Assembly (NCBI GenBank): GCA_015061145.1
Contig: SUXD01000001.1
Coordinates: forward strand, 1 to 64,000
DNA: 64,000 nucleotides
Origin: Bacteroidales bacterium
Lineage (GTDB): Bacteria > Bacteroidota > Bacteroidia > Bacteroidales > Paludibacteraceae
Direction: 5' to 3'
In this document: one piece after another, positions 14,294 to 37,287 of the stretch
How positions within the stretch are numbered: position 1 is the first letter of the stretch
Layout: each line of letters opens with the position of its first letter
Translations under genes and position numbers: made by a program
Notes under the pieces: generated by a model
Told to the model about the DNA's origin: nothing
What the model saw: only the letters and a program-made list of their open reading frames with translations
The model's database searches: none

Positions 14294-14315
14294 ATTTGTT
14301 TATTCCCGAACAAAT
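14294..14315 (-). promoter_or_regulatory. possible expression-platform hairpin
   Basis: ATTTGTT (14294-14300) is complementary to AACAAAT (14309-14315), and on the minus strand TATTTTTG follows just before the btuB ATG. It could be a weak terminator or a translation-blocking hairpin controlled by the riboswitch. The stem is short and AU-only, so this is an inference. Confidence 0.4.
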
Positions 14316-14325
14316 GTTTTCTTCG

Positions 14326-14501
14326 GTTTTGGCAGGTCTCCTGACTTGTCCGTGTTTTTCGTGCCTTCCCATCCGAGGGTTCGGACAGTGGCGTGGATTG
14401 AAAGAACATTTTTTTCGGACTTACAGTTGCGGGTACAGCTCCGGTTTCACACCGGATTCCCTTTTCACCCCAATTCTTTGCGGAATGTGGGACACCAAAA
14501 C
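14326..14501 (-). ncRNA. cobalamin riboswitch
   Basis: On the minus strand all hallmarks of the cobalamin (B12) aptamer are present in order. They are closing stem GTTTTGG (14501-14495) with CCAAAAC (14332-14326), GGGAATCCGGTG then GAAACCGG, GCTGTACCCGCAACTGTAA, the core GCCACTG, GATGGGAAGG, and the B12-box-like AGTCAGGAGACCTGCC. About 176 bases, ending 42 bases before the btuB ATG. When cobalamin binds, such RNAs repress uptake genes, so btuB and btuG should be induced by B12 starvation. Confidence 0.95.
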
Positions 14502-14506
14502 GTCTG

Positions 14507-14514
14507 CAAAAATA
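14507..14514 (-). promoter_or_regulatory. -7 promoter element of the btuB riboswitch transcript
   Basis: TATTTTTG on the minus strand fits TAnnTTTG and lies 6 bases before the first stem of the riboswitch. Transcription would start at the aptamer. Confidence 0.6.
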
Positions 14515-34108: not shown

Positions 34109-35377
34109 TTATTTGAGATCATTGTTCGAAAAACGAACAGCGAGACCAATTGCTTTGCCAAGTAATGGTGGCACAGCATTGCCGATTTGTACGAGTTGCT
34201 TGTTTTTCTTGCCTTCAAATATGAAGTCGTCGGGGAACGATTGTAGACGAGCCATTTCACGAGCGGTTAAAACTCTTGGTAGTTTTGGGTGTATGTTAAC
34301 TCCACCGTGATTCTCCTTTATTGTGCAAGAAGCCTCGTTCCATGGGCATTTTTTCCAAGCGTCAGAATATCCCTTGTATAGACTTTTTCCTTCGGGAAGT
34401 TCTAACATTTTCTGCGCCATGTCAGGACGATGTTTTGTTGGGACATGATTAAAATTTTCGTCTTCTGGGTGTTCCATCAAATCAGATATAGCTTCTCCTG
34501 TGGTAACGTATTCGGAAGGTCCTAGGATTGGTTTCGGGTGATAGTTTTTTGCTCCGATACGGTTGCCTATGAAAATCACACGTTCTCTTTTCTGTGGAGT
34601 TTTGTAATCTGCCGCACAGAGGACTGTTACGTTCATTTCGTAGCCAATCTCTTTGTAATCCGCAATTATTTTCTTTTCAACCTCACCGCCTAACATACTG
34701 CGCAGACCTTTCACATTCTCGCAAATAACAAAGTCTGGCTGTAAGTTCTTTACAATTTCAAGCATCTCAAGGTATAGCGAATTGCGTGGGTCGTCAACAA
34801 TGCGATTGCCAGCCATACTGAATCCTTGACAAGGGAAACCTCCTGCGACAACATTCAGTTTTCTGCTACCTAATTGCTCTTTCACGGTCTTGTAAAATTC
34901 ATCTTTTACTTCCTGTTGCTTTATGTCGCCATTTACAAATGGATGTTTGAAGTTGCGCTTATATGTCATGCCTGCCTCGTTGAACCAGTCAAGTCCGCAA
35001 ATGCCTTGCAAGCCAGCCATTTCAAGCCCTTTGCTTAGACCTCCTGCGCCGCAGAATAAATCAACAAATGTCATTTCTGATGCTTGGGGATTATCCCAGA
35101 ATTTGGAGATGTCAGCCCAGTTAATGACATCGGATTTCTTTTTTGTTTCGTTGATAGTTCTATTTTCTGTAATCTCCTTGAATAGTGTGTTTTCAACAGA
35201 AACCGATTTTGATTTTATTGTTTCGATGTTTGTGTCAAAGTATTCTTTGTCTATACGATATATGTTGTTTGTTTTTATTGTTTCTATTTGTCCAGCCGCA
35301 ACCATTCTGCGAGTCGCTTTTAATGTTAGACCAAGTATTTTTGCGACTTCTGAGATAGAGTATGTGTTGTTCTTCAT
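34109..35377 (-). CDS. DNA (cytosine-5) methyltransferase with N-terminal helix-turn-helix
   Basis: A 422-residue C5 methyltransferase. Motif I is FVDLFCGAGG (104-113), motif IV GGFPCQGFS with catalytic C183, motif VI ENV (220-222), motif VIII QKRERVIFIG near 265, and motif X QIGNAVPP near the C-terminus. The target-recognition region lies between VIII and X. Residues 5-45 are an extra excisionase/MerR-like helix-turn-helix (YSISEVAKILGLTLKATRRMV). Such fusions can repress their own operon, as known for M.SsoII-type enzymes; this is an inference here. The start overlaps the endonuclease stop by four bases. It protects one strand of an asymmetric site if the system is type IIS-like. Confidence 0.9.
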   Translation of the reverse strand: MKNNTYSISEVAKILGLTLKATRRMVAAGQIETIKTNNIYRIDKEYFDTNIETIKSKSVSVENTLFKEITENRTINETKKKSDVINWADISKFWDNPQASEMTFVDLFCGAGGLSKGLEMAGLQGICGLDWFNEAGMTYKRNFKHPFVNGDIKQQEVKDEFYKTVKEQLGSRKLNVVAGGFPCQGFSMAGNRIVDDPRNSLYLEMLEIVKNLQPDFVICENVKGLRSMLGGEVEKKIIADYKEIGYEMNVTVLCAADYKTPQKRERVIFIGNRIGAKNYHPKPILGPSEYVTTGEAISDLMEHPEDENFNHVPTKHRPDMAQKMLELPEGKSLYKGYSDAWKKCPWNEASCTIKENHGGVNIHPKLPRVLTAREMARLQSFPDDFIFEGKKNKQLVQIGNAVPPLLGKAIGLAVRFSNNDLK

Positions 35378-36063
35378 TGCTTATCTGATTTTGTTTTGTA
35401 ATTAGGGTAGAGTTTGCTCATTACTGTGTCTATTGATTCCTGACTGACTTTTTGTACTGAGCGAATGCGATATTCTACAGGGTCGTATTGGTAACATCCA
35501 ACGCAACCTTGTTCTTCGTTGTAGTTCTCGTCACCTTCATAGAAGGAATATGGATTACCTTCGATATTTCGAGCATCCCATCGTTTGTCTGTGGCTTTGC
35601 AGTTTTTGCATATTTGTCGTTTGATGTCGTTCGCAGCTTTGCAAAGAGGTTGAAAATCTTCAAGTTTCTGCGTTGATTGGTTAGAAATACGCATGTCGTT
35701 TTTTCTGCCGTCTTTGTGGTCTACTTCGATTTTCGTGTTTTCCGATGTTCCATTAACACCAAGCATTACGCATTTGCGTTTCCGTATTTCGTCACATATG
35801 TCTTTTCGAATAGTCTGATTGAAATGTGGTGCGTCGTTGAATCCTGTTAAGCGAATTGCATCAATGCGATTTCCTGGCGTTATACTCCTGTCAACGTCAA
35901 CATTGTATGTCCTTTGCAATGGTGATGACGCGCGTCCCCAACTCCAGCCGTTGCCGAGTTCTAAAGGTTTGTATTTGCCAATAAATTCGGATGTTTTAAC
36001 CCATCTACTTTCTCCTTTTTCGTTTGGTTGGGCTAGTTCAAGAAATAAGTCAATCAATCCCAT
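35374..36063 (-). CDS. HNH restriction endonuclease (probable)
   Basis: A 229-residue protein between two DNA methyltransferases. The C-terminal half has a beta-beta-alpha-metal (HNH) core: KIEVDHKDGRKND (112-123, D115 and H116 as metal and base candidates), then QPLCKAANDIK with N145. It is stiffened by a zinc ribbon from cysteines C152, C155, C187 and C190 (CKNC, CVGC). The N-terminal half (GNGWSWGRASSPLQRTY) is probably for site recognition and has no motif I know. HNH type IIS enzymes such as MnlI have the same partners, so it is most likely the nuclease of this system; the recognition site cannot be read. It follows the upstream methyltransferase by 2 bases. Confidence 0.75.
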   Translation of the reverse strand: MGLIDLFLELAQPNEKGESRWVKTSEFIGKYKPLELGNGWSWGRASSPLQRTYNVDVDRSITPGNRIDAIRLTGFNDAPHFNQTIRKDICDEIRKRKCVMLGVNGTSENTKIEVDHKDGRKNDMRISNQSTQKLEDFQPLCKAANDIKRQICKNCKATDKRWDARNIEGNPYSFYEGDENYNEEQGCVGCYQYDPVEYRIRSVQKVSQESIDTVMSKLYPNYKTKSDKQ

Positions 36064-36065
36064 AT

Positions 36066-36848
36066 TTATACCTCCTTTCTAAAAACAAAAACATATTCAT
36101 GCTTGAATAGAAAATTCCCATTCTTAAGTGCACGATAACGCCATAATCCTTCTTGTCCAATTTTGGCTCTGTTGCCGACCATGTCTTTGACAACAATACC
36201 TTTCAATGCGCATTTGAATTGCTTTTTAATTGCGTACATTAGGTAAAAACCAAGTGGGATGACTTCTCCGCTCTTGTAGATGTCGCCAATGACAAGAACT
36301 AAGTATTTCTTCTTTTTCAGATATTGGTATGCGGATTGGACAGAAGCGATAAATCGTTCGATGAAAAGATTTATGTCGGAAATATTTGATAAATCTTCGG
36401 TCTTGTCCGTGAATTTTACAATGTCTAAATATGGTGGATGTGCGATTATTATATCAAGTTTTTTCTTGTTCCAAAGTTCAAGGTCCGTTTTTATGTTGAC
36501 AGATGCTTTTGTGGATGTTGCATCGCAGTTGTGAATGAAAAACTCATTATGGTCTGAATCCTTCATTCTTTTTTCAACAAAGTCAATCACATCCTGATTG
36601 ATGTCGAAGCCGATATACTTACGTTTCAGTGTTTCGCACTCAAATAGAGTTGTTCCGCTCCCCATAAACAAGTCTGCTACGACGTCACCTACCTCGGTGT
36701 AACGCCGTATCATTTGATTTGGAATTTGCGGAGCAAAATTGCCGTGATAAAAATTAGAATGTTTGCCGCCTTTTGCTCGTGGACCTATAAGCCATAGGCT
36801 GTCGACATTGATGTCGAGTTCTTTCCAATGCTCCTTGTCAAGTTTCAT
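36066..36848 (-). CDS. DNA N6-adenine or N4-cytosine methyltransferase
   Basis: A 260-residue amino-methyltransferase. Motif X-like residues IPNQMIRRY (42-50) come first. The SAM motif I DLFMGSGTT (59-67) and motif IV AHPPY (136-140) follow, so the order is X-I-IV (class gamma). The catalytic motif is HPPY rather than the common DPPY, NPPY or SPPY, so adenine and cytosine specificity cannot be told apart. It is the first gene of the operon, and its ATG is preceded directly by a 7-bp hairpin (36849-36871). Paired with the C5 enzyme it suggests an asymmetric target needing a different modification on each strand. Confidence 0.85.
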   Translation of the reverse strand: MKLDKEHWKELDINVDSLWLIGPRAKGGKHSNFYHGNFAPQIPNQMIRRYTEVGDVVADLFMGSGTTLFECETLKRKYIGFDINQDVIDFVEKRMKDSDHNEFFIHNCDATSTKASVNIKTDLELWNKKKLDIIIAHPPYLDIVKFTDKTEDLSNISDINLFIERFIASVQSAYQYLKKKKYLVLVIGDIYKSGEVIPLGFYLMYAIKKQFKCALKGIVVKDMVGNRAKIGQEGLWRYRALKNGNFLFKHEYVFVFRKEV

Positions 36849-36871
36849 CGCCTTCAGGTTTTGGGAAGGCG
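36849..36871 (-). promoter_or_regulatory. inverted repeat abutting the start codon of the first methyltransferase
   Basis: CGCCTTC (36849-36855) and GAAGGCG (36865-36871) form a hairpin or operator directly against the ATG at 36848-36846. It could bind the helix-turn-helix of the C5 methyltransferase or fold in the mRNA to limit translation. Function is inferred from position only. Confidence 0.45.
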
Positions 36872-36968
36872 TTAAAGATGGAAAGAGGATGGATTCTTAG
36901 TGTTCTCTGTCTCATTTTCATTTGCCTTTCTGCGTTCAGCCACTTACCGATGAATGCAGGTACACAAA

Positions 36969-37027
36969 CAAATACCTCAGAGCATAAAAGAAGCGCGAAC
37001 TTCCCTTATTGAGCTCTGAGGTATTTG
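36969..37027. repeat. 15-bp perfect inverted repeat (hairpin A/B)
   Basis: Arm A, CAAATACCTCAGAGC (36969-36983), is the exact reverse complement of arm B (37013-37027). Inside, ATAAAAGAAG and CTTCCCTTAT extend the stem with two mismatches around the loop CGCGAA, giving a 59-base hairpin. Confidence 0.9.
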
Positions 37028-37128
37028 GCGTAACCCGCAAAATCAAATAAGTTCCGTCCACGCTAAGCGTGAACGTTCACTGAACTTATTCTTGATTCTG
37101 CATCTTCTAATCGCCAAATTTTCAGAGC
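37013..37128. repeat. nested imperfect inverted repeat (hairpin B/C)
   Basis: Arm B with three more bases, GCTCTGAGGTATTTGGCG (37013-37030), also pairs with arm C, CGCCAAATTTTCAGAGC (37112-37128), with one bulge. Inside, AATCAAATAAGTTC (37041-37054) pairs with 37082-37097 except for a 2-base bulge, and CACGC/GCGTG (37059-37071) forms the tip. Arm B can pair with A or with C but not both. Confidence 0.85.
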
Positions 37129-37252
37129 ATCTCGAATAAATAGCAAACGCTATGATTAATAATGTGTTACTTTGTTTTTTTTAGTGTTTTTTATTAATGT
37201 TTTTTTTATTGTCAATAGTATTAGCAAATATAAGGATTTGTTTTTATACCAA

Positions 37253-37287
37253 CAAAAAAAGAGGCCGCCAAAATTGGCAGCCTCTTT
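37253..37287 (-). terminator. terminator after ompA
   Basis: AAAGAGGC and GCCAA (37258-37271) pair with TTGGC and GCCTCTTT (37274-37287); one mismatch interrupts the stem. On the minus strand seven T follow. Confidence 0.9.

Follow-up and report, generated by a model that had tools for sequence, protein, structure and literature searches.

What is the role of the nested hairpins at positions 36969–37128 of the 64,000-nucleotide (nt) stretch of Bacteroidales DNA analyzed here (the window; contig SUXD01000001.1), which lie between a restriction-modification (RM) operon and ompA? A first reading of this locus made from the letters alone (the sequence-only reading) described three arms, A, B and C, of which B can pair with only one of the others at a time, and suggested an RNA switch or attenuator or, alternatively, a mobile-element end or a small structured RNA. 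We estimate a probability of about 65% that the element serves as 5′ leader RNA to the RM operon, as one of a large, unnamed family of cis-regulatory RNAs in Bacteroidia, predicted to work as attenuator-type switches. Sequence comparison establishes a cis-encoded leader RNA with a terminator-like hairpin, mutually exclusive helices and a predicted bistability specific to RM leaders; the mechanism that we infer for it would be similar to transcription attenuation.

The geometry described previously was found to be correct. Arms A (36969–36983) and B (37013–37027) were complementary in 15/15 positions, and C (37112–37128; GCTCTGAAAATTTGGCG in sense) forms a helix with one bulge with B (plus-strand reading GCTCTGAGGTATTTGGCG), enclosing an inner imperfect stem (arms 37046–37062 and 37074–37090, 17 nt, 82%). 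The hairpin region had been called non-protein-coding, and no long open reading frame (ORF) was detected in it. Folding of the 186 nt from 36960 to 37145 as RNA gave −75.8 kcal/mol for the minus strand (z −8.7) and −55.3 kcal/mol for the plus strand (z −6.8), and none of 200 shuffles matched the fold energy of either strand. The location between the RM operon start (36848) and the ompA terminator (37258–37287), which forms the other boundary of the region, was also confirmed, but the limits given before were too narrow. The sense strand of the element is the minus strand, and the element extends beyond 36969–37128, starting with a promoter box near 37232 and reaching the start codon of the operon at 36848.

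In sense order, the element consists of the promoter box, an AT-rich segment, a 5′ hairpin, a 5′ motif, the long hairpin (C, mid5, H5, tip, H3, mid3, and B), a terminator-like hairpin (T) with a U-run, A, and the gene; all features are on the minus strand. The predicted −7 box TATATTTG (37225–37232) fits the Bacteroidota −7 promoter consensus TAnnTTTG, and a candidate −33 TTG is present at 37250–37255. TAnnTTTGC was counted 68 times in the 150 nt ahead of 111 nonredundant copies of the element, compared to 1.4 expected. The modeled element starts with the AT-rich segment TAACACATTATTAATC (37154–37169), conserved in 5/5 copies from this genome and in the family consensus, followed by the 5′ hairpin ATAGC-GTTT-GCTAT and the 5′ motif CTATTTATTCG (together 37133–37153), an alternative partner of H5. 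Within the long hairpin, C (37112–37128) forms the 5′ strand of the basal stem and is the partner of B, mid5 and H5 (GAATAAGTTC; 37082–37104) form the 5′ strand of the upper stem, and H3 and mid3 (37037–37054) its 3′ strand. The tip hairpin (GTTCACGC / GCGTGGAC; 37056–37074) can alternatively pair through its 3′ side with the 3′ arm of the terminator, and B (sense GGGTTACGCCAAATACCTCAGAGC; 37013–37036) can pair with C or A. Hairpin T, GAAG-TTCGCG-CTTC followed by TTTTATG (36983–37003), sits between A and B, and at least four consecutive T residues were found at the end of the element in 98 of 112 nonredundant copies. Then follow A (sense GCTCTGAGGTATTTGTTTGTGTACCTG; annotated as 36957–36983), the alternative partner of B with the 15/15 match, and a downstream segment CATCGGTAAGTGGCTGAACGC (36932–36952), a candidate partner of H3. 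The terminator-like hairpin with its U-run, the conserved 5′ segment (37133–37169) and the homologous copies were all absent from the sequence-only reading.

Searches with the intergenic DNA revealed four further strong copies in the same genome, each located directly 5′ of a different DNA-methyltransferase or RM gene (two dissimilar N6 DNA methylases, a TaqI-like protein and another N6 methylase). A second genomic copy had been expected to point to a mobile element; further copies do exist, but that interpretation is disfavored by the homology between copies of one RM system in different contexts, which has no shared right end. Altogether 178 copies were gathered, mostly from Bacteroidales genomes. 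A covariance model (R1) detected copies in 52 of 101 related genomes with a maximum of 20 per genome, and a second model (R2) detected diverged copies in other Bacteroidia families and in one genome of another class. The exact 19-nt 5′ motif was present in 118 stretches of genome contigs, nearly all labeled as Bacteroidales, and in one stretch of viral contigs; plasmid and phage searches gave no match to the element. The copies were single, far apart and 5′ of genes, not in arrays. As had been supposed, the element fits no known family: no Rfam 15 family reached the gathering threshold on 19 copies from several genera, and no description of the family was found in open-licence papers. The RNA family is both real and widespread and apparently has not been described before, with a strict form that occurs mostly but not solely with RM operons. 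A third, weaker element type with a longer tip was seen in this genome at L203 and L218 (C38 and C34); the one at L203 immediately precedes a DndC-like gene with a PAPS reductase motif.

The main fold was strongly supported by covariation. In an alignment with 76 distinct rows, pairing of the long hairpin and T reached 94.1%. Changes on both sides were seen in 42 of 43 pairs and filled 896 cells, compared to 275 after shuffling, and slid controls were at most 45% paired. The C-B helices were 96–97.5% paired (two-sided changes in 15/15 pairs), the tip helix 99% and helix T 84.2%. In 135 nonredundant copies the stems held 505 G-U compared to 87 A-C cells, and the tip 248 compared to 4, counts to be read with the preference of the covariance model itself for G-U over A-C. 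Independently of that model, the sense strand folded better than the antisense strand in 134 of the 135 copies. The excess of G-U together with this strand asymmetry shows that the element functions as the sense RNA.

Helices that compete with the main fold were evaluated by a re-dealing test, in which the fit of a region to its own partner is compared to its fit to partners from other copies; the test leaves relatedness in, a concern that negative controls and slid versions reduce without abolishing. The C-B pairing gave z −46. The helix between the 5′ motif and H5 was 82.9% paired with two-sided changes in 7/9 pairs (z −11.4; control 5′ motif-H3, +0.7), and the conserved helix between the 3′ side of the tip and the 3′ arm of T (tip3:T3) was 88.1% paired with 6/8 pairs changed on both sides (z −12; control, −0.1). 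Taken together, these two alternative helices showed 85.5% pairing, compared to at most 56% when slid, and 13 of their 17 pairs had changed on both sides. Pairing of B with the downstream region (B:A) gave z −19 and that of H3 with the downstream region z −4.1; extended B:A duplexes were seen in other copies as well, and both B:C and B:A covaried in nonredundant copies. B:A reached −16 kcal/mol or lower in 65 of 68 RM leaders compared to 13 of 53 others (p = 4e-14). In RM leaders, the two global folds were predicted to be of nearly equal energy (median difference 0.6 kcal/mol), compared to −11.4 kcal/mol in non-RM leaders (p = 1e-13). Thus the switch proposed earlier from a single locus gained support, more than the alternatives offered with it, and the exclusive pairing of A, B and C now appears to be a class-wide property of RM leaders. 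A lack of conservation and covariation in related genomes, named beforehand as grounds for refutation, was not what the copies showed. In diverged copies from other Bacteroidia families (L208–L216), which precede small lipoproteins and other proteins, the 3′ arm of T (GTCCC, AACCC) was by eye pairable with downstream GGGAC/GGGTTT, possibly a different alternative helix; T3 versus downstream was weak in a pooled re-dealing test (z −1.6).

Genes behind the element were surveyed at loci picked solely by the 19-nt leader motif. The first sense gene was an RM gene in approximately 74 of 98 such loci, as judged by domain hits, catalytic motifs and homology and partly by eye, and a scripted RM label was assigned to 66/88 first downstream genes (44/61 nonredundant). 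No RM enrichment was found among the genes on the upstream side in the same census. RM types I, II, IIG, III, and ISP were represented, with downstream families including N6_Mtase, Eco57I, MmeI, N6_N4_Mtase, EcoRI_methylase, HSDR_N_2, C5, D12, type III, and ISP. The start codon was located a median of about 60 nt past the element (61 nt in RM copies). In homologous RM loci with different surroundings, DNA similarity extended from 0–60 nt before the element, promoter box included, down to the stop codon of the last RM gene, without a common right end; the element therefore behaves as promoter and 5′ untranslated region (UTR) of the operon. An exclusive link to RM was rejected, since weaker copies precede lipoprotein, small helix-turn-helix and other genes, and so was a universal leader of all RM operons, since this genome also contains RM operons without the leader. 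A leader with an A arm was also seen ahead of a GTPase gene (L072:807-3029) that weakly matches LeoBC, a PADLOC model, which suggests that the leader is possibly common to non-RM defense genes. The adjoining downstream genes at L100, L109, L151, L163, and L166 had no recognized domain in the libraries tried, and those at L186 and L207 are alike (approximately 170 aa); the genes after the leader at these seven loci are candidates for unknown accessory or defense genes.

These observations can be combined into a putative mechanism. RNA polymerase would start near 37220, and formation of the long hairpin would be followed by formation of the terminator, so that transcription would mostly stop ahead of the RM genes. 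Should the 5′ motif pair with H5 instead, the 3′ side of the tip could take the 3′ arm of the terminator, which would permit read-through. In RM leaders, the read-through RNA could then lock into a third fold of about equal stability (B:A and H3:downstream) that would keep the long hairpin open. Such mutually exclusive folds of the leader suggest that RM systems are under RNA control. The chances appear evenly divided as to the broader proposal that one unnamed switch family is common to all main RM types in Bacteroidales, with the post-terminator arm making the RM leader bistable and open to control by a common signal.

Several points weigh against the interpretation as an attenuator-type RM leader. 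Other accessory genes, such as those for a lipoprotein or a small helix-turn-helix protein, follow about one-quarter of the motif-selected copies and most of the weaker ones (the latter in G026, G053, and other orders), which means that its use extends beyond RM, and most other N6_Mtase genes in this genome lack the element. Pairing of mid3 and of the 3′ side of the tip with the downstream region was not significant in the re-dealing test, with no covariation. The U-run of the terminator is missing or weak in some leaders (e.g., L033/L034), where the switch may act differently. Finally, alignments made with a covariance model lean to the structure of that model; the MAFFT alignment of the five copies from this genome already contained 16 base pairs with two-sided compensatory change.

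The rival that survives best, though we regard it as unlikely, is an independent gene for a small RNA, made up of promoter, long hairpin and terminator, located before the RM genes and acting in trans on arm A in RM mRNA. Promoter box and U-run both belong to the unit itself, and copies without an A arm end in the terminator and precede unrelated genes. However, B matches the A arm of its own copy far more closely than A arms taken from elsewhere in the family (z −17 to −19), which points to pairing in cis, and the median distance of 60 nt to the start codon and the homology that runs on into the RM genes also count against this rival.

It is rather improbable that the element is instead a translational switch, in which the start codon is hidden in one fold and freed in the other. 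UCAUCGG is by eye pairable with the start-codon region CCGAUGA in some copies (L026, L030), and fold II left the AUG by itself a little more accessible (p = 0.03), but no difference in accessibility of the start region (−12 to +12) was seen between the folds in 91 copies (p = 0.59), and the conserved terminator and the tip3:T3 pairing would be left unexplained. Start-codon sequestration as a general mechanism was rejected because accessibility did not differ between the folds. There is even less to be said for a constitutive mRNA stabilizer or RNase III processing site without a switch. A highly stable hairpin at the 5′ end can shield an mRNA, and the extended B:A duplex would suit RNase III, but neither function would call for mutually exclusive helices that are conserved, nor for a U-run behind a terminator.

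Least probable of all is a mobile DNA hairpin (MITE, REP element, integron attC or cassette end) acting as single-stranded DNA: the element is multi-copy, strongly palindromic and accompanies horizontally moving RM genes, but G-U tolerance and sense-strand bias indicate RNA, the DNA that homologous RM loci have in common extends from the promoter through the final stop codon and has no common right-end sequence, no arrays were seen, and the element is nearly absent from viral contigs with no plasmid or phage match. A MITE, REP or transposon end, expected to be a strand-neutral palindrome with insertion boundaries, was rejected because the tolerance of G-U is strand-specific and no shared right boundary was found; attC, expected as arrays of sites behind cassette ORFs with the core GTTRRRY, was rejected because the copies lie singly and widely spaced at the 5′ side of genes, and GTTTGCT does not fit that core.

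The operon behind the leader (34109–36848, minus strand) consists of N6/N4 and C5 methyltransferase genes on either side of an IceA-family endonuclease gene. The first gene (36066–36848) encodes the N6/N4 DNA methyltransferase (PF01555, 1.6e-23), followed by the IceA-family restriction endonuclease (35374–36063; PF05315, 4.6e-107) and the C5 DNA methyltransferase (34109–35377; PF00145, 2.3e-67), whose N-terminal helix-turn-helix (PF12728) might be a second regulator. A putative translated leader ORF of 27 codons (36838–36921, minus strand) begins approximately 60 nt past the U-run and overlaps the methyltransferase start codon, making translational coupling possible; an unrelated 22-codon ORF was seen in the same position in copy L020. 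Elsewhere in the window, an ordinary cobalamin riboswitch was detected (14314–14514, minus strand, 117 bits).

RM expression is known to be controlled mostly through proteins specific to one system or through overlapping promoters. If the attenuator-type leader is confirmed, a leader common to types I, II, IIG, III, and ISP would represent an RNA control layer over bacterial immunity that travels with the operons, and its predicted bistability would allow a common cellular signal to switch many unrelated RM systems on or off together. Which signal many RM systems share is then a testable question, with infection, growth state and S-adenosylmethionine supply as examples of candidates. Besides, the covariance model provides a handle on accessory genes under the same control, some of them without known domain.

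Compared to known systems, the element resembles the candidate RNAs described in Bacteroidetes, Flavo-1 among them (PMC2864571, PMC9723704), in being a structured RNA, some of those being located in 5′ transcribed regions, but no Rfam model, that of Flavo-1 (RF01705) included, matched copies of the element. This comparison covered RNAs with an Rfam model; GUCCY-hairpin and Bacteroides-2 have no Rfam accession in the table of the paper (PMC2864571, PMC9723704). Control of RM systems by C-proteins or operator hairpins likewise represents local regulation at the operon start; here, in contrast, an RNA structure is common to unrelated RM types in place of a system-specific protein regulator. With type III toxin-antitoxin and retron operons the element shares a structured RNA ahead of a defense protein gene in one transcript unit, but it has no toxin, reverse transcriptase or RNA repeat array, and its partners are many unrelated RM types. 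Similar to riboswitches, it is located in a 5′ UTR and its family consensus contains conserved internal-loop positions within covarying helices, whereas the downstream genes share no common pathway and no Rfam riboswitch matched. The greatest resemblance is to transcription attenuators, such as amino-acid operon leaders and riboswitch expression platforms, which also precede operons and combine a terminator-like hairpin with alternative helices that disrupt it. The element has a 5′ leader position on the same strand as the genes, with its own predicted promoter, a terminator-like hairpin between this promoter and the first gene (weak in some copies) and, in tip3:T3, a covarying alternative helix that uses the terminator arm. 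It differs from these attenuators in having neither a conserved leader peptide nor a match to a known aptamer, and in preceding RM and other accessory genes, with a post-terminator arm in RM leaders that is predicted to reopen the long hairpin.
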